Positions 1,598-34,068 of a stretch of DNA of 35,560 nt are shown here, in pieces; positions within the stretch are counted from its first letter, which is position 1, and each line of letters opens with the position of its first letter. Source of the stretch: a virus; IMG/VR virus record IMGVR_UViG_3300037826_000095, positions 1 through 35,560 of that record; one strand, 5' to 3'. Position numbers and translations under genes: made by a program. The notes beneath the pieces are model-generated. The model was not told the origin of the DNA. It worked only from the letters and a program-made list of their open reading frames with translations, and made no database searches.

Positions 1598-3717
1598 TGC
1601 ACTTCACTCAATTTCTTGCCCAAGTATTTCTTCTTCTCCGCGCCCACGATCATCCTATGCAATTCCCGGCACCCGTTCACACGGCCCCAGGGCGTGCTGA
1701 CCGGCCGCTTGCACACCCGCTCATCCCTGGCCGTGTACCACACAATCACCCAGTCTCCGTTGTCCAGGAGCATCGGGTGCGTGGAGCACCGACAGCGCGG
1801 GTGCGCGGGCGCCTTGTAGCGCGTCCTCGGCAGCCCGATCCGCTGGCGCGTGATGTCATTCGCCTCGTCAAACGCGCGTGTCACCTCCGTGCTGGCGATC
1901 AGCTCCGCCCGCTGCGGCCCGAAGGTCGGAGCCAGCGTCTGCGTCAGCTCATCCAGCTCCGCGCCCGTCTCGATCCAGGTCGCCACCGCCTCGCGCACGC
2001 TGGCCCGGGTCGTCTCTGTCACATTCGTGATGAGCTCCCCGGCATATTGCCGCGCCCACTCAGCCGCCTGCTGGTTCACACCCGCCCAATCGACCCCGCC
2101 GCCGACCTCCTCCTCCGTGTCCGTCGCCGCCAGCCGTACCAGCTCCTGCACAGCCTGGACCAACCGGCTCAGGAACCGCTTCCGGAACCGTTCCTCCTCC
2201 TGCTGCCAGAAGGCGTCATCGTCGGCCAGGTTGCGGTTACGCTCCACCGCCTCCGCCACCCTCTCCTGCTGCTCGTCCAGGAACTCGGCGATGTCCGCCT
2301 TCAGCTCGTTCTCAAGCTGCGCCCGCTGCCGCGCCCGCCCCTGCTCCGCGAACTCCGCCAGCCCCTCCTCCGAATCCTCTGTAGGGCGGGTTTCCATACC
2401 CGCCGCCCCCGGCCCCAGCGACGGCATACCGGTTCTCTTCCTGATCCAATTCTCATCCTCCGGCGTCCACGTCAGCAAGTCGCCCACCTGCTGCAGCCAG
2501 TTGCCCAATTGCCCCAGCGCGGGTTTTTCTACTTTCGTATGCGTCAGCCGCGCCCGGCCCTTGATCTGCGGGTTATACGCCAGCAACCGCGGCACCGCGA
2601 AGCGGTTCACCACGCTCGCCAGCCGATCCAACGTCCCGTCCGTGGCCATCAAAAAGAGCTGGCTCTTATCGCTCCCCAGCGCCCACGATCCGGTCTGGCC
2701 CGTGCCCAGGTTGATGAAATCGGCCAGCATCGTCTGCAACATCAGCAGGCGATAATACCGAATCGTATTCAGCAGCGCCTCGGCGTTCGTGTTGCTCACG
2801 CTGGTCAACGAGAAATTAACGCCGCTCGGCACGCTCACATATTGTTTCGCGTCCACCGAGAGCGCCTGGCCCACGCTCTCGACCTGGCTCTGATCCTCGC
2901 TGCTCGGCTTCTCCTCGAATTCGAAGGTCGGCAGCCCCACAAAACTACGCTGCCAGCCAATGCCGTTGATGATTTGCAGATTCTTGAGGTAGTACCACGT
3001 TTCGTATAGAGATTCTAGAAGGGCAAACCCTTCGGGGTTGCCGCCATCCCGCTGGAACGTGAAATGAAGGCTCTTCTGGATTGGTATCTCGATCTCCTCG
3101 TAGTCCGGCGCCGGGCGCTGCACCAGCCCCTGGAGCCCGCCGGTCTCGTCGAACTGCCACTTGTGGAAGGAACTCTGCCGGCGCACGGCCCACTTCCGCC
3201 AGCCGATGTTGCCTTCTTGTGGTGAGCCTGTCGAACCAACCTGTGGTGAGCCTGTCGAACCAACCTGTGGTGAGCCTGTCGAACCAACCTGTGGTGAGCC
3301 TGTCGAACCAACCTGTGGTGAGCCTGTCGAACCAACCTGTGGTGAGCCTGTCGAACCACGCCGCTTGTAGCAGATCTCCAGCCAGGACCAGCCGAACATC
3401 ACGCACGTCAGCGCATCCTCAATCGCGTCCGCTGGCGTGTGGCTCATATCGTGCAGGCAATCGTCCAGAAAATCCGCCGCCGCCCGGTCCTCCGCGCTCT
3501 CACTCTCCGGCTCGAAGTACCACTGCGCCGTGCGAGAAAGCATCACCAGCGCATTCCACATCGTGCGGATCGTCGGGTCGCGCCTGCGCATCTCATCATA
3601 CACATCATACGCTGCGGGCCACTCCAATTTTGATGTATAAGACTCGGAGACCTGCCCAGAGAATTCCAGCAGCCCGGTTTTTCCGACCTCATTCATTGTC
3701 AGCGGTATCCGTACCAT
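1594..3717 (-). CDS. portal protein (Mu gp29/DUF935-like) fused to gpF/SPP1 gp7-like head morphogenesis domain
   Basis: The N-terminal two thirds resemble Mu gp29-type portals (RRRDPTIRTMWNALV, VMFGWSWLEI, then LHFTFQRDGGNPEG and a long helical region), forming the DNA-entry ring. The C-terminal part has the gpF/gp7 minor head signature, including HPRCRC near residue 640. In Mu these are two adjacent genes; here they form one 707-residue frame. The frame extends upstream to an ATG at 3771, but those 18 codons lie in the conserved left flank of the duplicated cassette. The ATG at 3717, preceded by GGGAG with short spacing, is therefore the more likely start. Residues about 121-166 are a tandem octapeptide repeat, described separately. 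Confidence 0.85.
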   Translation of the reverse strand: MVRIPLTMNEVGKTGLLEFSGQVSESYTSKLEWPAAYDVYDEMRRRDPTIRTMWNALVMLSRTAQWYFEPESESAEDRAAADFLDDCLHDMSHTPADAIEDALTCVMFGWSWLEICYKRRGSTGSPQVGSTGSPQVGSTGSPQVGSTGSPQVGSTGSPQVGSTGSPQEGNIGWRKWAVRRQSSFHKWQFDETGGLQGLVQRPAPDYEEIEIPIQKSLHFTFQRDGGNPEGFALLESLYETWYYLKNLQIINGIGWQRSFVGLPTFEFEEKPSSEDQSQVESVGQALSVDAKQYVSVPSGVNFSLTSVSNTNAEALLNTIRYYRLLMLQTMLADFINLGTGQTGSWALGSDKSQLFLMATDGTLDRLASVVNRFAVPRLLAYNPQIKGRARLTHTKVEKPALGQLGNWLQQVGDLLTWTPEDENWIRKRTGMPSLGPGAAGMETRPTEDSEEGLAEFAEQGRARQRAQLENELKADIAEFLDEQQERVAEAVERNRNLADDDAFWQQEEERFRKRFLSRLVQAVQELVRLAATDTEEEVGGGVDWAGVNQQAAEWARQYAGELITNVTETTRASVREAVATWIETGAELDELTQTLAPTFGPQRAELIASTEVTRAFDEANDITRQRIGLPRTRYKAPAHPRCRCSTHPMLLDNGDWVIVWYTARDERVCKRPVSTPWGRVNGCRELHRMIVGAEKKKYLGKKLSEVQ
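3218..3358 (-). repeat. 24-bp tandem repeat (5 full copies plus one partial) inside the portal gene
   Basis: The plus-strand unit starts TGTGGTGAGCCTGTCGAACC and is repeated without change from 3218 to 3358. Because 24 is a multiple of 3 the portal frame stays open, adding GSTGSPQV octapeptides. The core TGAGCCTGTCGAA is identical to the loop side of the REP-like hairpins at 33932-34068, so the array looks like a host-type dispersed repeat that expanded within a coding region. It lies between two conserved portal segments, probably in a surface loop. Confidence 0.95.
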
Positions 3718-3774: not shown

Positions 3775-3783
3775 TGATATACT
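3775..3783 (+). promoter_or_regulatory. extended -10 promoter of cassette copy A
   Basis: TGATATACT fits an extended -10 element (TGn-TATAAT type). The predicted start lies about 7 nt downstream, at or next to the first arm of the leader (3791). No good -35 lies at 17 nt. A TTGGTT at 3749-3754 is kept at the same 23-nt distance in copy B (32767-32772) and may be an accessory site. The promoter faces against the head operon. Confidence 0.6.
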
Positions 3784-3790
3784 TATCGTT

Positions 3791-3945
3791 GAGCTAGCAA
3801 CTCATCGACAGGGGCGTTTTTGCGTTTCTGGCGCAATCGCATACAATTCACCTGTGAGCCCGTGGTGGAATGCGCCCCGTCGAGTTGCTAGCTCCCGGAA
3901 GCGCCGAATCCGCGGGCTCGCGCCATCGAGTAAAGGAGCTAGCAG
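3791..3945 (+). ncRNA. structured 5' leader (putative RNA switch) of cassette copy A
   Basis: A 155-nt leader from the predicted transcript start to the start codon. Arm 1 (3791-3803) GAGCTAGCAACTC is exactly complementary to arm 2 (3882-3894) GAGTTGCTAGCTC. The helix can extend with CGAC/GTCG and GGGGCG/CGCCCC (3811-3816 with 3873-3878). Arm 3 (3936-3944) repeats the first nine bases of arm 1 and overlaps the AGGAG ribosome-binding site. Arm 2 can therefore pair either with arm 1 or with arm 3, the latter hiding the Shine-Dalgarno. Copy B has the same length, and its arm changes are matched in all three arms. I do not recognise a known riboswitch class. Confidence 0.7.
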
Positions 3946-4194
3946 ATGAAGACCAGCAGAATCGATCCGAGCATCGTCACCGTCGAGCTCACCGCTCACG
4001 AGTGCGACCTCATCGCCCGCGCCCTCCACGCCCACACCGACCGCGCGGTCGAAAACGACGCCCAACTGAGCCAGATTCAATCCCTCTCCGATTCCTTCGA
4101 CCTCGCCTCCATCCTCGCCGTCGCCCTCTCCCACCTGCCGATGGATACCATCGAGCGCCTCCGCGAAGAGATGAAGGTCTCCATCCTCGCCTGA
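3946..4194 (+). CDS. 82-residue cassette protein, copy A (unknown function)
   Basis: Starts at an ATG after AAAGGAG. The product is small and mostly helical (ELTAHECDLIARAL, then SLSDSFDLASILAVAL, then DTIERLREEM), with no signal peptide, membrane segment or known motif. It is 71/82 identical to the protein at 32966-33214. Nucleotide differences between the copies fall mostly at third codon positions of this frame (about 10, against 7 first and 4 second), and the replacements are mild (I/L, D/E, H/Y). This frame is therefore the selected one, rather than the long antisense frame opposite it. It is antisense to the phage late genes and has its own promoter, leader and 3' hairpin, like a phage moron. 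Function unknown. Confidence 0.75.
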   Translation: MKTSRIDPSIVTVELTAHECDLIARALHAHTDRAVENDAQLSQIQSLSDSFDLASILAVALSHLPMDTIERLREEMKVSILA

Positions 4195-4202
4195 TCTCCC
4201 CC

Positions 4203-4239
4203 GTCTGGTCATCCTAAGCCCTTCGAGGGATGACCAGAC
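4203..4239. terminator. 3' hairpin of cassette copy A, shared with the end of the terminase gene
   Basis: A perfect 12-bp stem: GTCTGGTCATCC (4203-4214) with GGATGACCAGAC (4228-4239). There is no T-run. The equivalent hairpin in copy B (33222-33269) keeps the stem through one compensatory pair (T-A to C-G) and one wobble. The last codons and stop of the large terminase (minus strand, stop at 4209-4211) lie within it, so the terminase C-terminus is encoded by the hairpin. It could end or stabilise convergent transcripts. Confidence 0.6.
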
Positions 4240-6887
4240 AATTCTTGCGTCATCTCCCAGAAGCCCATATCAGTCACGGCCCCAAACGCATCCCACCGGC
4301 TGCGCACGTCCGGCGCCTGCGGCACGTCCGAGAAGCTCACCATCGCCGGGAGCATCTGCACCGCCCCGCTCACCGCGTCCACCTGGTCGTCGTGCTGCCC
4401 GCGCGGGAAGCTCAGCGCCTCCGCCACGAAATCATCGTTCCACGGCGCCCGCACCATCGCCACCAGCCCGTCCTCAATCCGGCTGGCCCAGACGTTGGCC
4501 CGCACTTCCTTGTTGCCCACCTTGCGCGGATCCACGCCCTTGATCGGCACGCCCGCCAGCGCATCGTCACGCTGGAGCTCCTGGAAGTAGCCGCCCTGCT
4601 GACCGCTCACCTCAATGCCCTGCTCCACTCTGGCCCCATCCCGCTGCATCGTCGCCACCATCCGCGGTCTCGCATCCGCCCACGGGCCGGGGAAACGCGC
4701 TATATCTAGAATGTAGAGCCGCCCCTCAGAGGAGCGCCCCACCTTCGCGCCCACGATGTAATCCGCGCTCTCGCGCCCGCTCACGGCCAGGTCCCAGTAC
4801 CGCGCCAGCCGCAGCCCCTGCGGCGCCTGGTCCACAATCGGAATCTCATTCGCCTTAATCAGCGCCCCTTCCAGTTGGCGCGGTCGCTGCTGGTACAGCG
4901 CATCCCAATCGTAGCCGCCCAGGTTGGCCCGGATCGCGTCCAGCGCCTCCCGGTCAAACTTCCCCGCCCACAGCGCCTCGCCCGGTTCCCGCCCCAGCGG
5001 ATCGCGGCTGATCCAATACCCCTGCCGCACCGCCTTCCGCACCATCTCCTCAAAATCCTGCTCCCCTGCTCCCCTGCTCCCCTGCTCCCCCTCAGCCTCC
5101 TGCGCCCACGCCTCCGCCAGCGCCGGGAGCGATAGGATCTCCCACCGGTCGCCGCCCTCCAGCATCCGCCGGATCAAGCGCCCCGCCAGGTCGTCGCTGT
5201 GCCATCGCTGGTGCATCAGCACAATCGCCCCCGCCTCTTCCAGTCGCGTGTAGAGCGTGCTCCGATACCACGCATCTACTTTGTCCCGCGTCGCCTGCGA
5301 TTCCGCATCGTTGCGGTCCTTGAACGGATCATCGATCACGGCCAGGTCCGCCCCCCGCCCAATGATCGAGCCGCCCACGCCCGCCGCCACCAGCCCGCCC
5401 CGGTGACCCTCGATATTCCAAGCGTCCACCGCCCGGCTTTCCGTCGAGAGCAACACCGGCTCCTGCTGGCTGCTCCGCGCCCCGAAAACTGCCTGGAACG
5501 GTGTATCCTTCACGATCTCCCGCACCCCGCGGGAGAAATCGTACGCCAGTGAACCCGTGCAACTGGAGAGAATCACCCGCTTGTCCGGATTCCGCCCCAA
5601 AAACCACGCTGGGAATCGCTTGGAGACCAACTCGCTGTTATGAGTTGGAATAAAATTTCTGCCTACTAGATAAATGCCATCCTTACTATCAACCTGTACG
5701 CACCGCCCCGTTTCAGGCTCAACTCTCTCCACCGCTACAATAGATACTCGTCGCTGCTTAGCAAGGCGACGGATCTCTTTTCTCTCCAACCTTGTTGGAA
5801 TCTGCATTGTCGGTTGAAAGCCAATGTAATAAACCGTTTTAGTCCCCACAATGCCCGATGTAGATGTTGTGGGGTCTTGCTCACAGACATATGGCCGGAA
5901 ACCAAGAGAGGCCAAAATCTCAACAATGTCATTACATAGTACTGGATCAGCAGTAACAATTCGCACACGGCTGCGTTTCCCAACGTGACCATCAGTATCC
6001 ACCAACCCTGCTATCAACTCCAGCCGTTGTTCGACATTGCTCCGCTTATAACATTCAGGGATGTGCTTGTTACCCCACACCCCCAATGCCTGTAATTCCC
6101 TGGTCATCCTGCCAGCCACACCAGGGCGAGGCCCTCCAAAATACGTTGTTAAAACCCCTGTTTCATTGTGTGTGCAGACTGTAGAGATGTCATAACCTTG
6201 TCTCTCGATTTCCTCTATCACAGAGTGCTCGTTAGGATCGTGCGTGATACACGGTTTAGTGCTAGAACCGTCACCCAACCAGGCTCCCAAGACATAGGGA
6301 TGAAGAGGTAATTCAGCTGTGGGATACTGGAGCGCCTCAATATTGGGGAGTTGGTAGATATATCGTCCCGCGCTTTTTAATTGCACTCGCTCGCCGAACT
6401 TCGTTTCGCGCATTAAAAAGCTCGTTTCAATCGTTTGCCATTTTCGCATTGAACGATTGTAAATGACCCATTCGTGGTTCTCGTGACAAAGAAAAGCTGA
6501 CCCGTCGCTCATCTCAATTCTGACATCAGCTAGTCCGGGCTGTGAAATAGCTAAGACATTAACCAATCCACCATCTAATCCAAATACCTGATCACCAGGT
6601 ACTAAATCACAATGAAGCTTCCACCCGCAAGCAGTGGGAACTAGTGTGTGATCTGCGAGCAGCTTCCCGTGACGCGGAGGCATAAATACCATCAGCCGCC
6701 CAATGCCCTCCTCGCCGCCGCTGGCGACGAACCGCTCGACCTCCTCCAGGTACTCGGCCAGCAGCCGATGCACCCCCGCCGCCTGGTATCGCCGGTATGT
6801 GTACCACGCAAACGCGATCAGATCCCGCCGCGCCAACTCCCGGCGAGCGAGCTCTTTTCTGGTCTCCTCTACGCGATCGTTAGTCAT
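4209..6887 (-). CDS. phage terminase large subunit (TerL) interrupted by an intein
   Basis: This is the ATPase-nuclease that packages DNA into proheads. The precursor is 892 residues; removing the intein (residues 76-417) leaves 550, normal for TerL. Extein motifs: Walker A PPRHGK joined to S across the intein, Walker B AVIDDP near residue 518, and a nuclease domain with YWDLAVS and HDDQVDA near the C-terminus. The start is the ATG at 6887, with GGA 6 nt upstream; an in-frame TTG at 6902 is less likely. A short octamer-derived linker (GEQGSRGAGEQ) lies between ATPase and nuclease. TerS lies upstream on the same strand, but a plus-strand operon sits between them. The C-terminal HPSKGLG comes from the cassette hairpin. 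Confidence 0.93.
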   Translation of the reverse strand: MTNDRVEETRKELARRELARRDLIAFAWYTYRRYQAAGVHRLLAEYLEEVERFVASGGEEGIGRLMVFMPPRHGKLLADHTLVPTACGWKLHCDLVPGDQVFGLDGGLVNVLAISQPGLADVRIEMSDGSAFLCHENHEWVIYNRSMRKWQTIETSFLMRETKFGERVQLKSAGRYIYQLPNIEALQYPTAELPLHPYVLGAWLGDGSSTKPCITHDPNEHSVIEEIERQGYDISTVCTHNETGVLTTYFGGPRPGVAGRMTRELQALGVWGNKHIPECYKRSNVEQRLELIAGLVDTDGHVGKRSRVRIVTADPVLCNDIVEILASLGFRPYVCEQDPTTSTSGIVGTKTVYYIGFQPTMQIPTRLERKEIRRLAKQRRVSIVAVERVEPETGRCVQVDSKDGIYLVGRNFIPTHNSELVSKRFPAWFLGRNPDKRVILSSCTGSLAYDFSRGVREIVKDTPFQAVFGARSSQQEPVLLSTESRAVDAWNIEGHRGGLVAAGVGGSIIGRGADLAVIDDPFKDRNDAESQATRDKVDAWYRSTLYTRLEEAGAIVLMHQRWHSDDLAGRLIRRMLEGGDRWEILSLPALAEAWAQEAEGEQGSRGAGEQDFEEMVRKAVRQGYWISRDPLGREPGEALWAGKFDREALDAIRANLGGYDWDALYQQRPRQLEGALIKANEIPIVDQAPQGLRLARYWDLAVSGRESADYIVGAKVGRSSEGRLYILDIARFPGPWADARPRMVATMQRDGARVEQGIEVSGQQGGYFQELQRDDALAGVPIKGVDPRKVGNKEVRANVWASRIEDGLVAMVRAPWNDDFVAEALSFPRGQHDDQVDAVSGAVQMLPAMVSFSDVPQAPDVRSRWDAFGAVTDMGFWEMTQELSGHPSKGLG
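5058..5089 (-). repeat. CTGCTCCC octamer x4 within the terminase gene
   Basis: Four perfect tandem copies of CTGCTCCC. The array encodes the Gly/Glu/Gln-rich linker of TerL between the ATPase and nuclease parts. Eight is not a multiple of three, so a change by one unit would break the frame. Confidence 0.9.
5637..6662 (-). mobile_element. intein with LAGLIDADG homing endonuclease in TerL, probable class 3
   Basis: A 342-residue in-frame insertion placed exactly between K and S of the terminase Walker A motif. The C-terminus is FIPTHN followed by Ser+1, a standard splice junction. The first intein residue is Leu, not Cys or Ser, so ordinary class 1 splicing is impossible. Instead it carries the class 3 signature: Trp two residues after the block B His (NHEW), a Cys at the start of block F (RCVQVD), and Thr just before the penultimate His (PTHN). 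Two LAGLIDADG motifs are seen, LGAWLGDG near intein residue 125 and LIAGLVDTDG near 216. The segment is clearly more AT-rich than the flanking terminase, indicating separate acquisition. Confidence 0.9.
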
Positions 6888-7025
6888 AATATTTCCAATC
6901 AATTACAAAAGCATAGATGCATTTTAGTTATGATAATTGGCGTTATGTGCGCTGCCTGCAAAATGCCTCGCCCAAAAACCCCCCTAAAATTGCCCAAAAC
7001 TTTAAGATTAGAGGCCCTTTTCGAC

Positions 7026-8225: not shown

Positions 8226-8849
8226 CTACCTGCTATCATCTTCAGGCAACTGCGCAATCGACGCCAGATCTTCCTCGCTCACTTCGCTCCAGTCCGATAC
8301 CTCGCCCGCCACCACCCCGACCTCCTGGCGCTTGACGTAATCGCCCAGCATCTCCAGCGCCAGCTTCCGGTCGCTGTGACTGCGCGGGTTCGGGTCGCTC
8401 GCGCTCTCGATCAGCGCCGCGTAAATCTCGGAGCGCGCCTTCGCCAGCGCCGAGGCCGTCAGCGCCTTGATCCGCGTCTGCATCGCCGGGTTCTCCGCCT
8501 TCCACTGGCTGACCACCCGGTCCGAGGTCAGCCCCAGCACCTCCGTCGCCAGTTCGTGCTGGTACCGCGGCCTGCGCTGGTCCGCTGGCTGCGCCGCCCA
8601 GAGCATAAATACCGCCTGGCGCCAGCTCCAGCCCTCCTCCAGGAGATCCCAGTAATCATCCATCCAAGGCCCGGCGTCGTGCTGCGCCTCGAATACCCGC
8701 CGCGCCCTCCGGCTGCGGAGCTGCGCCTCCGATAGCGCATTTACCTCGCCCGCCATCCCCGGCAGCGCCCGGATCGCGTCGAGGGCCTCGGCCTCATCTT
8801 CTCCGAGCGCCCCATCGCCATCCAGCAAATCCATCTCCTCAGTCGCCAC
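8226..8849 (-). CDS. terminase small subunit (TerS)-like
   Basis: 207 residues. The central part carries an HTH-like region (LATEVLGLTSDRVVSQWKAE) followed by long helices and a conserved-looking basic stretch (NPRSHSDRKLALEMLGDY), a layout common in small terminases that recognise packaging sites. It is the nearest late gene upstream of TerL on the same strand, and its start overlaps the end of the endolysin gene by 11 nt. The separation from TerL by a 1.3-kb opposing operon is unusual. Assigned from organisation and HTH pattern; sequence similarity could not be tested. Confidence 0.65.
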   Translation of the reverse strand: MATEEMDLLDGDGALGEDEAEALDAIRALPGMAGEVNALSEAQLRSRRARRVFEAQHDAGPWMDDYWDLLEEGWSWRQAVFMLWAAQPADQRRPRYQHELATEVLGLTSDRVVSQWKAENPAMQTRIKALTASALAKARSEIYAALIESASDPNPRSHSDRKLALEMLGDYVKRQEVGVVAGEVSDWSEVSEEDLASIAQLPEDDSR

Positions 8850-16861: not shown

Positions 16862-17220
16862 TTGTTGGAAATAGTGCGGTGTAGCTTATCCGGTACTCCA
16901 AGATCGTACTCGATCTTAAGCGCATCGGGCCGTGGATCCTTCGATCGATAGATCAGCTCGCGCAGCTCCTGATTGCCATCGATATATTCTCCCATCGCCC
17001 AGGCCAGGAGCATCACCGCAAATTGGCTGGCGCTGGTTCCCAGGAGCTTGCCCTTCTTTTTCACGGCCTCGCGCAGCCAACGCGGACAATCGTACGTCAC
17101 CCGCACCCGCTCCGCGTCGTACCTCTCTTTCGCCGTCATCGAGCGGCACTTCTGCCGCTGCTGGCTCTCGCCCAGGATGGCGGCGACGCCCGCGTCCAGA
17201 TCAATCTGCTGCCTTGGCAT
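16849..17220 (-). CDS. small DNA-binding partner of ParA (ParB-equivalent, RHH-like)
   Basis: 123 residues. GGAGGTGAAGG precedes the ATG, and the gene overlaps the ParA stop by 20 nt. The centre (ERVRVTYDCPRWLREAVKKKGKLLG, then SASQFAVMLLAWAM) fits a ribbon-helix-helix: a strand followed by two helices. Type Ib partition systems use such small partners to bind repeat arrays, and six repeats lie directly downstream. The last residues (NNGTD) are encoded by the repeats. Confidence 0.7.
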   Translation of the reverse strand: MPRQQIDLDAGVAAILGESQQRQKCRSMTAKERYDAERVRVTYDCPRWLREAVKKKGKLLGTSASQFAVMLLAWAMGEYIDGNQELRELIYRSKDPRPDALKIEYDLGVPDKLHRTISNNGTD

Positions 17221-17989
17221 CCTTCACCTCCTCCTGGAACCGCGCCAGCACCTGCGCGTATCCTCCTCGCTGCCCACCGTTGATCTCCACGCCGCGCACG
17301 GCCCGCGTCTCTGGCGCGTACTCCCACAGCGTCTCGCCGTGCGCCGGGGCCTCGCGCACTCTCGTATCCTTCGGCACGGGCGGCCACACAAACCGCCCGA
17401 ACCGCGAGGCCAGCGTGACCAGTTGCTCGTGGCTCTCATTGGTCGAGCGCTCCCAGAACGTGGGTAACACGCCCAGGAACCGCCCGCCCAGATCCATCTC
17501 CTGCAGCGAGGCGAACGAGGCCAATGCATCCGCCGCGCCGACCACGGCCAGGTGATCCAGCGCCACCGGGATGACGAAGCCGTCCGCCGCCACCAGCGCG
17601 CCCACCTGCAGCACATCCACGCCCGGGGCCACGTCCAGGACGGCAAAATCGTAGTGGTGAGCTACGCCGTCCAGCGCCTTGCGGATCGCATATTCGCTAA
17701 AACTCTCCCCGACCACGATCTTCTTGGCCTTGACCGTGGACTTATCCGAGAGGATCACGTCCAGGCCCGTGCGCCCCGATCCGCTGGTGGCGTCGTGCCC
17801 CTCCACCAGGGCGCGGTACAAGGCGCCCTTTTTCTCCAGGCCCAGGCTATCTGCCACGTTGCCCTGCGCATCGAGATCGACCAGCAGCGCCCGCGCCCCG
17901 GATCGGGCCAGCCCGTGGGCCAGCGTCACAGCGGTCGTTGTCTTCCCCACACCGCCTTTCTGATTCACGATTGCTAATACGTACATCAT
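17201..17989 (-). CDS. parA: ParA-family partition ATPase
   Basis: 262 residues. Deviant Walker A KGGVGKTTT (residues 11-19), Walker A' LLVDLDAQGN (about 36-45), and a Walker B-like FAVLDVAPG. These ATPases move plasmid or chromosome copies using a DNA-bound partner; the partner and a repeat array follow directly. Two adjacent ATGs (17989, 17986) follow GGGAGGG; either may be used. Its presence in a phage with structural genes points to low-copy extrachromosomal maintenance, as in P1- and N15-type phage-plasmids. Confidence 0.92.
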   Translation of the reverse strand: MMYVLAIVNQKGGVGKTTTAVTLAHGLARSGARALLVDLDAQGNVADSLGLEKKGALYRALVEGHDATSGSGRTGLDVILSDKSTVKAKKIVVGESFSEYAIRKALDGVAHHYDFAVLDVAPGVDVLQVGALVAADGFVIPVALDHLAVVGAADALASFASLQEMDLGGRFLGVLPTFWERSTNESHEQLVTLASRFGRFVWPPVPKDTRVREAPAHGETLWEYAPETRAVRGVEINGGQRGGYAQVLARFQEEVKDAKAAD

Positions 17990-18804: not shown

Positions 18805-19272
18805 TTAAGTTTTCCGCCGGCGCATCTTCTCCGCCAGCGCCGACAGCGGATCTAGATCCTCCACCATCCCCGCCACCAGCGCCATCATCACGATGTCGCC
18901 GAGTTCCGATTCTAGCAAATTGTCGTTGAAATCCGGATGCGCCTCCGGATTGTTCCGCACCCAGCCGCCCTCGCGGGCCAGCAGCAACTCCTTCGCCTCC
19001 GCCAGCTCCGTCAACAGCCAGTCCAGCGCCTCATCAGCGTCCGCGGGCCACTTCAGTCCGCGCTGCTCATAATACTCCGCGATCATCTCGTATGTGCTCT
19101 CGGCGCCGTTCAGATATCGCCGCCAGGCCTCAACCATCGCCATCTCGGCGCGGAAAAGCCCGTGTGGCACCCCCGCCGCCTGCTCCTCCGTCATCGGGTC
19201 ATCGCCCAGCTCCTCGTCGAGGTCGTGGAATGCTTCCCGGATGCGCTGCTCAATAAAATCAGCCCTCGTCAT
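18805..19272 (-). CDS. MazG-like nucleotide pyrophosphohydrolase
   Basis: 155 residues, all helical. The C-terminal half has the MazG/all-alpha NTP-PPase metal motifs ELAEAKE and LESELGDIVM (E-x-x-E and E-x-x-D type), ending DPLSALAEKMRRR. These enzymes hydrolyse NTPs or dNTPs, or lower alarmone signalling; phages often carry them. The start overlaps the end of the DpdA-like gene by 4 nt, suggesting joint expression and a shared role in nucleotide or DNA modification. Confidence 0.75.
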   Translation of the reverse strand: MTRADFIEQRIREAFHDLDEELGDDPMTEEQAAGVPHGLFRAEMAMVEAWRRYLNGAESTYEMIAEYYEQRGLKWPADADEALDWLLTELAEAKELLLAREGGWVRNNPEAHPDFNDNLLESELGDIVMMALVAGMVEDLDPLSALAEKMRRRKT

Positions 19273-20006
19273 AAATCCTCCAATAGCGAGAATTGAATCG
19301 GCTCACCACTCATCCAGGTATGGATCTGCCTGATGTTCTGCTTCGCGCACTCCTCGCGCGAAAGCTCTAGACCCAAATCATCGCATCTTATCCGGCGCCC
19401 GTCGCGCGTGAACAACTCACGTGCCTTCATCCCGGACAGCCAGGACTGAGAATCCGCCGAGGCGAACCACGGTTCTCGCCCAAATTCCGCCAGTATCCGT
19501 GCTGAAGACACGCCAAAAAAATGGGCCTTTGACCACGGCTGCAGAATCTGGCCGATGGCCTTAATCAGATACATAGCCTCATCGACGCTACGCTTGATGA
19601 CTGGCACCAATCCGCCAATACCGATTAAACTTTTATCCATCTCATTCTCAAGGCGTTTTAGAGACGCCCCGCCCTCGACCTGATATATCCAGAGCGGATT
19701 ACAATCCATTTCCTGGTGCAATCGCCTCCAATTGCGGTCACTGCCGCTCTGGTCGCCAATCACATCCAGGCTAGCGCACCACTCAAACCTATCACCGACC
19801 TCGTGGATCACCGATGCGTACCATTCCAAATCATCCACGCCCTGGAAAGCACCGGAATCGAGCACCAGCGGCACCTCCGGATACCGGCGGTAGGCCGCCT
19901 TCATCGCTGGCTGCGTGGCCACGGTGGCGTTCACCATCCCCGCCGCGCCCTCGCGCGCCAGGATCTCGATAAATCCCGCCCTGTCGATGCCGGAGAAATA
20001 ATACAT
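19269..20006 (-). CDS. TGT/DpdA-like transglycosylase (putative 7-deazaguanine DNA modification)
   Basis: 245 residues with the landmarks of the tRNA-guanine transglycosylase TIM barrel as seen in DpdA proteins: LDSGAFQ (Asp50, the position of the general Asp in TGT), SLDVIGD (80-85), YQVEGG (108-112), GIGGLVP (129-135), HFFGV (162-166) and SADSQSW (Asp185, candidate nucleophile). DpdA enzymes exchange guanine in DNA for preQ0-type bases, protecting phage DNA from restriction. No preQ0 synthesis genes are in the window, so the base would come from the host. No C-terminal zinc site of bacterial TGT is seen, arguing against tRNA modification. Confidence 0.7.
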   Translation of the reverse strand: MYYFSGIDRAGFIEILAREGAAGMVNATVATQPAMKAAYRRYPEVPLVLDSGAFQGVDDLEWYASVIHEVGDRFEWCASLDVIGDQSGSDRNWRRLHQEMDCNPLWIYQVEGGASLKRLENEMDKSLIGIGGLVPVIKRSVDEAMYLIKAIGQILQPWSKAHFFGVSSARILAEFGREPWFASADSQSWLSGMKARELFTRDGRRIRCDDLGLELSREECAKQNIRQIHTWMSGEPIQFSLLEDL

Positions 20007-20010
20007 CTCC

Positions 20011-20033
20011 CTACTCCCTACTCCCTACTCCCT
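20011..20033. repeat. CTACTCC heptamer array (three units)
   Basis: Perfect tandem CTACTCC units. They supply the final codons and stop (20018-20020) of the recombinase gene read on the minus strand. Confidence 0.85.
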
Positions 20034-20917
20034 AATACACCCTCCACCACGCGCGCGGGATTCTCCTCCCGCGCCGCGACCAGATGCACATACGCATCCG
20101 TCGTGCGCGGGTCCGCGTGCCCGGCCATCCGCTGCACGTGCTCGCGGCGCGCGCCGCCCGCGATCGCCAGCGTGATCGCCGTATGGCGGAAGATGTGGGA
20201 GGCCTGTCCCTCGCGTTTGCATCCGGCCTTGCGCAGGTAGCCATTCACGATCTTGCGCAGCCCGGAATCGGACAACCCGCCGCGCCCGGTCAGCCCCACA
20301 AACAGCCGGTCACTCTCCGTCGCAGGCCGCAGGGCCAGCCACCCCCGCAGCGCCCGCTCCAGCCCGTCCGTGAGCCACAGCACGCGGCGCTTACGGCCCT
20401 TCCCAGCCCGCACCACCAACCGCCCGCGGCCCAGGTCCAGATCGTCCAGCCGCAACGCCCGCAGCTCAGAGGCCCGGAGGCCCAGGGTGAGCAACGTGGT
20501 CAGGATCGCCCGATCCCGCGCACGCCGCTGCGGGTCGTCCACCGCATCCACCACCGCCAGCACCGCCCGCGCCTCCTCCACCGTCAGAAACTCAATCTCC
20601 TCCTGCGGCGGGGTGGGGTCGGGCGGGGCCTGCACGCCCTCGGCCGGGTTCGGCTCGCGGCCCAGCGCGTCGTACAGGTGCCGCACGCACTGGAGCTTGA
20701 GCTGCACCGTGGCGGCCTTGTAGCGCGCCACCAGTTCGGCGCGGTAGGAGACCACATCCTCCTCCGTCGCCTTGCGCGGCTCGACGCCGTGCTCCCGGCA
20801 CCATTCCAGCCAAAGCCGCGCCTGCGTGCGGTAGCCCCGCACCGTGTGCTCGGACGGATTCCCCCGCGCACAGCGCCGTCGGACGTAATCCTCAAACGTG
20901 CTCAGCAGCTCAGTCAT
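20018..20917 (-). CDS. tyrosine recombinase, XerC/D-like
   Basis: 299 residues from the ATG at 20917, chosen because GAGG lies 9 nt upstream; an ATG at 20932 is possible. An N-terminal SAM-like core-binding domain is followed by the catalytic domain with R148 (GLRASELR), K173 (AGKGRK), H241/R244 (HIFRHT), H267 (GHADPRTT) and Y276. The short linker and lack of an arm-binding domain resemble Xer-type enzymes, which resolve multimers, rather than lambda-type integrases. With ParA present, dimer resolution is likely; integration is the alternative. Confidence 0.9.
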   Translation of the reverse strand: MTELLSTFEDYVRRRCARGNPSEHTVRGYRTQARLWLEWCREHGVEPRKATEEDVVSYRAELVARYKAATVQLKLQCVRHLYDALGREPNPAEGVQAPPDPTPPQEEIEFLTVEEARAVLAVVDAVDDPQRRARDRAILTTLLTLGLRASELRALRLDDLDLGRGRLVVRAGKGRKRRVLWLTDGLERALRGWLALRPATESDRLFVGLTGRGGLSDSGLRKIVNGYLRKAGCKREGQASHIFRHTAITLAIAGGARREHVQRMAGHADPRTTDAYVHLVAAREENPARVVEGVLGSRE

Positions 20918-21125
20918 CGCAGAATACCTCATTGCTCTGTGTGATGGTAAAATTCCGAAATAACGTTATCTCTCGGTTGTTGATCTCGGCCATCTTATTG
21001 CCAGCGCAAAAGATTGTCAGCCTAGGACCAATGATGACGAATCCATCTGGCAGCAGCTTGTCGCTGATGCCTATCGTCATATTCATAAATTCCTCGGCCC
21101 GATCGAATAATTCATCACTCAGCAT
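20910..21125 (-). CDS. small hypothetical protein upstream of recombinase
   Basis: 71 residues from an ATG with GGAGGAG 8 nt upstream. Sequence: MLSDELFDRAEEFMNM, then DKLLPDGFVIIGPRLTIFCAG, then NNREITLFRNFTI, a helix followed by strands, with Asn/Ile-rich composition. Overlaps the recombinase start by 8 nt. No family recognised. Confidence 0.55.
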   Translation of the reverse strand: MLSDELFDRAEEFMNMTIGISDKLLPDGFVIIGPRLTIFCAGNKMAEINNREITLFRNFTITQSNEVFCDD

Positions 21126-32792: not shown

Positions 32793-32801
32793 TGGTATAA
32801 T
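32793..32801 (+). promoter_or_regulatory. extended -10 promoter of cassette copy B
   Basis: TGGTATAAT, a consensus extended -10, with the leader arm starting 10 nt after it. TTGGTT lies 23 nt upstream, as in copy A. Confidence 0.7.
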
Positions 32802-32810
32802 TTCGATACT

Positions 32811-32965
32811 GAGATACCAACTCATCGGCAGGGGCGTTTTTGCGTTTCTGGCACAATCGCATACAATACACCTGTGGGCCCGTGGTGGAATGCGCCCCGT
32901 CGAGTTGGTATCTCCCGGAAGCGCGAAAGCCGCGGGCTCGCGCCATCGAGTAAAGGAGATACCAA
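32811..32965 (+). ncRNA. structured 5' leader (putative RNA switch) of cassette copy B
   Basis: Same 155-nt length as copy A, 14 differences. Arm 1 GAGATACCAACTC (32811-32823), arm 2 GAGTTGGTATCTC (32902-32914), arm 3 GAGATACCAA (32956-32965, overlapping the GGAG site). The two substitutions in arm 1 relative to copy A are mirrored as complements in arm 2 and repeated in arm 3, so six of the 14 differences are concerted. An extra change in the outer helix gives G-U in place of A-U. The loop region (TTTTTGCGTTTCTGG...) is nearly unchanged, as expected for a sensor or protein-binding part. Confidence 0.72.
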
Positions 32966-33214
32966 GTGAAGACCCGTAGCATCGATCCGAGCCTCGTCAC
33001 TGTCGAACTCACCGCTCACGAGTGCGACCTCATCGCCCGCGCCCTTTACGCCCACACCGACCGCGCGGTCGAAACTGAAGCTCAACTGAGCCAGATCCAA
33101 TCCCTCTCCGATTCCTTCGAGCTCGCCTCCATCCTCGCCACCGCCCTCTCCTACCTGCCGCCGGATACCATCGAGCACCTCCGCGAAGAGATGAAGGTCT
33201 CCATCCTCGCCTAA
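32966..33214 (+). CDS. 82-residue cassette protein, copy B (unknown function)
   Basis: GTG start after AAAGGAG, in the position of the ATG in copy A. 71 of 82 residues are identical to copy A; the C-terminal EEMKVSILA is unchanged. Predicted helical and soluble, no motif recognised. Lies on the plus strand between the tail chaperone and tape measure genes, antisense to late transcription. The existence of two full copies with intact frames, promoters and hairpins argues for selection on the whole cassette. Confidence 0.75.
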   Translation: MKTRSIDPSLVTVELTAHECDLIARALYAHTDRAVETEAQLSQIQSLSDSFELASILATALSYLPPDTIEHLREEMKVSILA

Positions 33215-33221
33215 CCCCACC

Positions 33222-33269
33222 GCCTGGTCATCCTTCGCTTGCACTAGCAAAGCCGAGGGGTGACCAGGC
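33222..33269. terminator. 3' hairpin of cassette copy B
   Basis: GCCTGGTCATCC (33222-33233) pairs with GGGTGACCAGGC (33258-33269). Relative to copy A one pair changed from T-A to C-G and another became T-G, so the stem is maintained while the loop differs. Heptamers CTACTCC x4 follow (33271-33298). Confidence 0.6.
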
Positions 33270-33270
33270 C

Positions 33271-33298
33271 CTACTCCCTACTCCCTACTCCCTACTCC
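33271..33298. repeat. CTACTCC heptamer array (four perfect units)
   Basis: Four exact CTACTCC units directly after the cassette hairpin and directly before the stop (33299-33301, minus strand) of the frameshifted chaperone extension. Confidence 0.95.
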
Positions 33299-33896
33299 CT
33301 ATCCCATCCTCGCCCGTGCCTCTCGCGCCTTCCGCCGCTCCCGCTGCACGATGGACCGCTTCTGCAAATACGCCTTGATGTCGCGCACCACCCAGGCTGG
33401 CGTGCGCATTAGCTCCTCCCACGTCCAGCCCAGCTCCAGGCACACCACGATGTCCGGGTCCAGCGGCAGCGCGCTATTCCTTCGTAGCGCCGTCTCCAGG
33501 TCGATCTCGAAAGGATTCCTGCTCGTCCTCCGTCCGCTGGCGGCGCGGGTTCAAGTCGTTGATCGCCGAGAGGATGAAGTCCGCGTCTTGCTCCGTCAAT
33601 TGCTCGATGGCCTGGCGCGTCACCGGGATCGGCTCGCCCTCCTCGTCCGTCCAGGCCACAATACCCCGCTCCAGAATCGCCAGATTCATCCGGTCGATCT
33701 GGAAGTCGGCCACCGCATCCTCCTCGGACGCGCCCGGTTTCATCCCCATCGCCACCGTCTGCCCGGCCAGCCACTGCCGGTCGCCGTATCCGAATTTCTT
33801 GATCGTGCAGGTCTCCAGCGGCGTTCCATCCTCTTTTTTCGCCCACCAGGGCGCGCTAATCGTCTTCCTCTGCGAATCATCCACAAATCTTGGCAT
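33299..33896 (-). CDS. tail assembly chaperone, frameshifted long form (gpGT-like)
   Basis: A second frame, +1 relative to the short form, is open from 33550 to a stop at 33299-33301 and has no start of its own. It encodes a sensible tail: EIDLETALRRNSALPLDPDI, then WTWEELMRTP, then RDIKAYLQKRSI and a basic end. The +1 frame has a TGA at 33551-33553, so the shift must occur between about 33550 and 33510. UUU CGA at 33512-33507 (UUU can re-pair as UUC before a slow CGA) is a candidate; the product would be 198 residues. Equivalent to lambda G/GT (-1) and Mu (-2) shifts before the tape measure. Confidence 0.65.
33474..33896 (-). CDS. tail assembly chaperone, short form (gpG-like)
   Basis: 140 residues. 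Position between tail tube and tape measure, and the domain pattern (WAKKEDGTPLETCTIKKFGYG, then DFQIDRMNLAILERGIVAW, then LTEQDADFILSAINDLNP), fit tail assembly chaperones that coat the tape measure. A purine-rich site (GGGGAGA) precedes the ATG. The normal stop yields this form; the +1/-2 shift near its end yields the long form. Confidence 0.75.
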   Translation of the reverse strand: MPRFVDDSQRKTISAPWWAKKEDGTPLETCTIKKFGYGDRQWLAGQTVAMGMKPGASEEDAVADFQIDRMNLAILERGIVAWTDEEGEPIPVTRQAIEQLTEQDADFILSAINDLNPRRQRTEDEQESFRDRPGDGATKE

Positions 33897-33931: not shown

Positions 33932-34068
33932 TAGCCATCCTGAGCCTGTCGAAGGATGGCCCTACTCCCTACTTCCTACCTAGCCATCCTGAGCCTGTCG
34001 AAGGATGGCCCTACTCCCTACTTCCTACCTAGCCATCCTGAGCCTGTCGAAGGATGGCCCTACTCCAG
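33932..34068. repeat. 49-bp tandem REP-like units (three copies)
   Basis: Units start at 33932, 33981 and 34030; each has a hairpin GCCATCC...GGATGGC with loop TGAGCCTGTCGAA, followed by CTACTCC/CTACTTC heptamers. The last unit is cut short at the tail tube stop. The loop sequence equals the core of the portal 24-mer. Confidence 0.95.

Follow-up and report, generated by a model that had tools for sequence, protein, structure and literature searches.

What could be the role of a phage leader in which one short sequence occurs three times, once inverted, and changes in all three places together? The window, that is, the whole stretch of DNA analysed (positions 1 to 35,560 of the IMG/VR virus record IMGVR_UViG_3300037826_000095), contains two such leaders, at 3791-3945 (w1) and 32811-32965 (w2), each followed by an ORF for a small protein.

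Two cassettes with tripled arms

In w1, arm 1 (3791-3803, GAGCTAGCAACTC) is followed by its exact reverse complement, arm 2 (3882-3894), and by arm 3 (3935-3944, GGAGCTAGCA), which repeats arm 1 and covers the Shine-Dalgarno sequence AAAGGAG (3932-3938) of the 82-aa ORF. The same arrangement in w2 consists of arm 1 (32811-32823, GAGATACCAACTC), an exactly complementary arm 2 (32902-32914) and arm 3 (32955-32964, GGAGATACCA), again over the Shine-Dalgarno sequence; all features of the two cassettes lie on the plus strand. The first-pass annotation described these three arms correctly in both copies, as well as their concerted change: arm 1 differs at positions 4 and 7, and both differences recur in arms 2 and 3, with no gap. 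The partner of arm 2 can be arm 1 or arm 3, and the two mutually exclusive pairings proposed at that stage are supported by the complementarity of the arms and, in both cases, also by covariation (see below).

Each cassette appears to be a moron-like unit, with a promoter-like extended -10 element and an apparent end hairpin, neither of which had been annotated before. The extended -10 elements, identified by eye at 3775-3783 (TGA-TATACT) and 32793-32801 (TGG-TATAAT), belong to a pattern (TGn followed by a TATAAT-like hexamer) that is located 7-9 nt upstream of arm 1 in all six cassettes known to us, although consensus scans did not list it; from this position, the transcript is predicted to start at arm 1 (about 3790 in copy 1). 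Downstream of the ORFs, there is a terminator-like inverted repeat at 4203-4239 and an imperfect one at 33223-33268 (CCTGGTCATCC...GGGTGACCAGG), the latter found by eye, with none listed by a perfect-stem search. The stems of the window copies have no long T-tract, whereas a distant homologue, L20a, carries a clear terminator with a T-tail. The cassette is absent from relatives at the corresponding sites, so it is apparently an accessory unit. In L013 (1862-2095), the terminase-portal gap contains a different small ORF in place of window copy 1, at a site that accepts accessory genes. Short repeats, GAGCCTGTCGAA and ACTCCCT, are present in gaps near both cassettes (3300-3360, 33270-33300 and 33940-34000), and in L020 a small G+C-rich hairpin within the leader (8361-8373) was flagged as terminator-like on both strands.

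The ORF of copy 1 (3946-4194) encodes an acidic 82-aa protein, and that of copy 2 (32966-33214, GTG start) a protein of the same length that is 85% identical to it. Members of the family are 80-82 aa long, with pI 4.7-5.0 and best 19-residue hydropathy of 0.9-1.45, and show no clear membrane segment. The two window proteins had no match in PHROGs and only below-cut-off matches in Pfam (H2TH, E = 0.053; GCP5, E = 0.096), where L20a had none. Among four proteins, PADLOC gave no match and NCBIfam gave one, for P0001 alone (NF004981, E = 0.063, 12.6 bits against a cut-off of 117). The best hit of a solved-structure profile search had E = 0.11, and an AlphaFold model (pLDDT 79) had no PDB match with E below 0.7. 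We read the weak Pfam, NCBIfam and structure-profile matches as chance. Two coding interpretations of the leader itself were rejected: the codon-position GC pattern and the lack of inter-clade similarity (E = 1.0) speak against a minus-strand ORF over it, and a leader peptide is, in our reading, not conserved, with frames that differ between copies.

On the minus strand of the window, the terminase gene (4209-6902) contains about 317 residues (80-397) that are absent from close relatives and include DnaC/primase PHROG matches, probably an intein, and an ORF at 14554-15291 matches the homing endonuclease family phrog_18411 (E = 2.7e-7). A queuine tRNA-ribosyltransferase-like gene (19269-20006) is perhaps involved in DNA or tRNA modification. 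ParA-like and integrase genes (17201-17989 and 20018-20932) indicate that the phage is probably temperate.

Homologous leaders and their covariation

Four further copies of the cassette were found in three related phage contigs, for a total of six leaders with five arm sequences. The near relatives L003 and L004 came from a protein search of viral contigs. A terminase search yielded additional relatives, and tblastn of the 82-aa protein against these detected locus L020, whose contig carries a second cassette in L049; these two copies are denoted L20a and L20b, respectively. The distant copies were thus recovered through protein similarity, not through structure. The L003 arms (GAGCAACCAACTC) are a third variant, altered in all three arms, and those of L004 are identical to the arms of w2. 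The arms of L20a and L20b (GGTCTGGCAACCT and GGTCGACAAACC) are unlike those in the window and unlike each other; even so, each has a complementary arm 2 and, ahead of the start codon, an arm 3 that repeats arm 1. Their proteins are only about 30% identical and the letters of their leaders are largely dissimilar, and all three arms are retained in both. Homologues with non-complementary arms would have spoken against the initial proposal; all six cassettes, an effective sample of five variants in two clades, have arm 1 identical to arm 3 and to the reverse complement of arm 2, with arm 3 positioned over the Shine-Dalgarno sequence.

Such triples rarely arise by chance. In 3000 dinucleotide shuffles of each of the w1 and L20a leaders, a triple of the form (K, rc(K), K) with an 8-mer K occurred once for w1 and never for L20a, and a 9-mer triple in neither; in 2.05 Mb of mononucleotide-shuffled sequence, there were no matches with arms of at least 10 bases. 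A scan of the relatives' contigs for triple arms detected these cassettes and short-repeat arrays, and nothing else; the triples in L027, L035, L037, L019, L050 and L061 were set aside as short repeats in arrays. In L027 (3896-4130) and in L035 and L037 (minus strand), short repeats in direct and inverted orientation form dense, iteron- or operator-like arrays. No credible relative of the protein or the leader was detected in phage and plasmid records (leftover matches had E of 0.2 or weaker) or in GTDB scans, a weak kind of negative evidence because these scans use short peptide patterns.

Between close copies, the arms change and the scaffold is largely kept. The sharpest contrast among six pairs is that of w2 and L003, which differ at 7 of 37 arm positions versus 1 of 118 positions in the rest of the leader, at a synonymous divergence (dS) of 0.125; w1 and w2 differ at 7 of 37 arm and 7 of 118 other positions. 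Cognate arm duplexes have predicted energies of -18.6 to -25.6 kcal/mol, and cross-duplexes formed by the arms of two copies from the same phage are weaker by about 7 to 15 kcal/mol (-7.2 to -14.9 kcal/mol). A conserved scaffold with co-changing arms is as expected of a pairing-constrained expression platform that stays distinct in each copy within a phage.

The scaffold includes a 10-bp helix, H, missed in the first-pass annotation, which encloses arm 2 in its loop (3856-3865, GAGCCCGTGG, with 3910-3919, CCGCGGGCTC, in copy 1; 32876-32885 with 32930-32939 in copy 2). The 78-nt 'apical part' that had been assigned the sensing function (leader positions 14-91) does not stand alone: its positions 66-75 form pairs with positions 120-129, on the 3' side of arm 2. 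In copy 1, the arm 1-arm 2 helix, P1, is extended by P1b (GGGGCG, 3811-3816, with CGCCCC, 3873-3878), and a weakly supported H2 joins UGGC (3829-3832) to GCCA (3922-3925). A local TTGCG/CGCAA hairpin of w1 was dropped, being broken in w2, L003 and L004.

In a structure-blind MAFFT alignment of the six leaders, two-sided changes are found in 9 of the 13 pairs of P1 and in 5 of the 10 pairs of H, where G-U pairs are retained. Together, P1 and H are paired in 99.3% of cells with 14 pairs changed on both sides, a result matched in none of 500 shuffles, and slid registers pair in 26-46% of cells. With helix segments laid out by hand, two-sided changes affect 15 of 19 pairs of P1 plus P1b and 5 of 14 pairs of H plus H2, where P1b and H2 were selected because they pair. 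The same selection applies to the register of arm 3, in which arm 2 and arm 3 are 100% paired (93.3% before the L20b register was adjusted), with two-sided changes in 7 of 10 pairs. RNAalifold recovers P1 unaided. The cores of the two clades show weak likeness only. In agreement with the earlier failure to recognise a leader class, an Rfam search of the window returned no match, and w1 and L20a searched at E up to 10 gave matches far below the gathering cut-off. Judged by its sequences, this leader is a previously undescribed RNA whose distant relatives apparently keep the folds while the letters change. We consider it probable that it is a cis-acting RNA switch that governs how a small accessory gene of the phage, within a self-contained transcription unit, is translated.

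Alternative explanations

The 5' stem could merely stabilise the mRNA or lower translation constitutively, with no switching. A helix at the 5' end should in general protect mRNA, and the putative switch has no known trigger; a stem of this kind, however, gives no reason for arm 3 to be a copy of arm 1, as it is in all six leaders, and we regard this explanation as unlikely.

The arms could also be three copies of a DNA operator, two direct and one inverted, surrounding the promoter and start, so that their co-change follows the specificity of a repressor. This would fit the coincidence of arm 1 with the predicted transcript start and the repeat arrays that occur in related contigs (TGTAACAG, GTATCACA). 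It does not predict the covariation of H and P1b, neither of which copies the arms, and leaves unexplained why arm 3 is fixed on the Shine-Dalgarno sequence in all six cassettes; further full copies of the arms are absent from the contigs checked. The covariation, including that of H, favours RNA pairing, and operators are in our view quite improbable.

In hok mRNA, the 5'-terminal and translation-start segments compete for one complementary segment. Coupled covariations in hok mRNAs are reportedly the subject of a 1997 paper by Gultyaev et al., whose title is cited in PMC6733600. The phage leader likewise has a 5' segment and a start segment that compete for one complement, but it comes without a membrane toxin or a 3' fold-back element, no antisense RNA was found, it has the H pseudoknot scaffold, and the sequences are unrelated. 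A type I toxin-antitoxin locus in the hok or timP style, with a folded toxin mRNA and an antisense RNA, would likewise be built on pairings around the Shine-Dalgarno sequence that exclude each other. The timP (RyfA) mRNA of the timPR locus adopts mutually exclusive conformations, with a leader that controls translation through a covariation-supported pseudoknot and a product that is a small membrane toxin silenced by TimR (PMC11228461). The likeness to timP lies in the exclusive leader conformations and the covariation-supported pseudoknot; in contrast, the phage protein is acidic and soluble-looking, the architecture differs, and the leader has no Rfam match. A toxin-antitoxin locus appears very unlikely: at 80-82 aa and hydropathy 0.9-1.45, the acidic proteins show no clear membrane segment, no consistent antisense sigma-70-like site was detected (by a scan that did not pick up the sense extended -10 sites either), and the copies share no 3' element that is complementary to arm 1, with no complementarity of at least 7 to the 5' end conserved across them. 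The hok and timP mRNAs are the closest in logic, and the leader belongs to neither family.

Finally, arm identity could be maintained by mutation, through inverted-repeat template switching that corrects arms 1, 2 and 3. Among close copies, all three variable arm positions are transversions through mismatches, without G-U intermediates, and between w2 and L003 the arms changed more than the scaffold. The original claim that concerted change is difficult to account for without selection for pairing is overstated for these copies, where template-switch correction could also produce it. The claim does gain support from the distant homologues, which are the stronger argument because H and P1b covary there too. 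Moreover, H retains G-U pairs, and the arrangement survives to about 30% protein identity. The covariation of H speaks for selection on pairing as well, beyond template-switch correction; template switching may be the source of the changes rather than the reason for persistent pairing, and as a complete explanation it deserves very little credence. A retron is unlikely, with no match to the reverse transcriptase family RVT_1 in the four contigs, which are possibly fragments.

A putative translational switch

Under the preferred interpretation, a cis-acting RNA switch, transcription would begin at arm 1, which duplicates the ribosome-binding region of the same gene, and the loop of helix H would present arm 2 as the anti-RBS. 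Because arm 1 emerges before arm 3, it would pair with arm 2 first and leave the ribosome-binding site free, so that the default state would be ON. If arm 1 were bound, cut off or displaced, arm 2 would pair with arm 3 and hide the Shine-Dalgarno sequence, the OFF state. In the four leaders compared, the pairing of arm 1 with arm 2 is longer and 0.9-6.4 kcal/mol more stable than that of arm 2 with arm 3, which suggests that the OFF state needs a trigger; our first guess is autogenous control, or else an effect on the scaffold of some other protein or a ligand.

When arm 1 is blocked in silico in the four window-type leaders, the predicted pairing of arm 2 with arm 3 rises from 0-0.04 to 0.98-1.00, and the unpairedness of the Shine-Dalgarno sequence falls from 0.63-0.69 to 0.37-0.40. 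This effect is not predicted by nested folding for L20a and L20b, where H is preferred and neither arm pairing forms in the full leader, in tools that do not score pseudoknots. With arm 2 enclosed by H, any arm pairing formed alongside H would create a pseudoknot, and in these two leaders the switch model depends on such pseudoknots.

H-type pseudoknot translational riboswitches such as SAM/SAH (PMC7367207) may be comparable in that, among close relatives, the scaffold is kept and the arms at the Shine-Dalgarno sequence vary within the limits set by pairing. The phage leader, in contrast, has no matching Rfam family or assigned ligand, and the function of its gene is unassigned. The autogenous leader of phage T4 gene 32 (PMC535899) is a phage mRNA structure that controls its own gene, as the leader described here would. 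The T4 leader contains a pseudoknot, without an anti-RBS/decoy arm pair.

More tentatively, these leaders might represent a new class of translational RNA switches, in which a 5' decoy copy of the ribosome-binding site competes for an anti-RBS in a pseudoknot loop, concerted divergence of the arms insulates the copies within one phage, and the scaffold senses a protein or ligand. Such a class would bring with it a structured leader and a protein family that are both new to description. With this leader, it would also be possible to tell selection for two alternative pairings apart from mutational templating. Three arms that diverge together on a nearly fixed scaffold would amount to natural orthogonal switches, produced by arm changes only and useful to RNA design.
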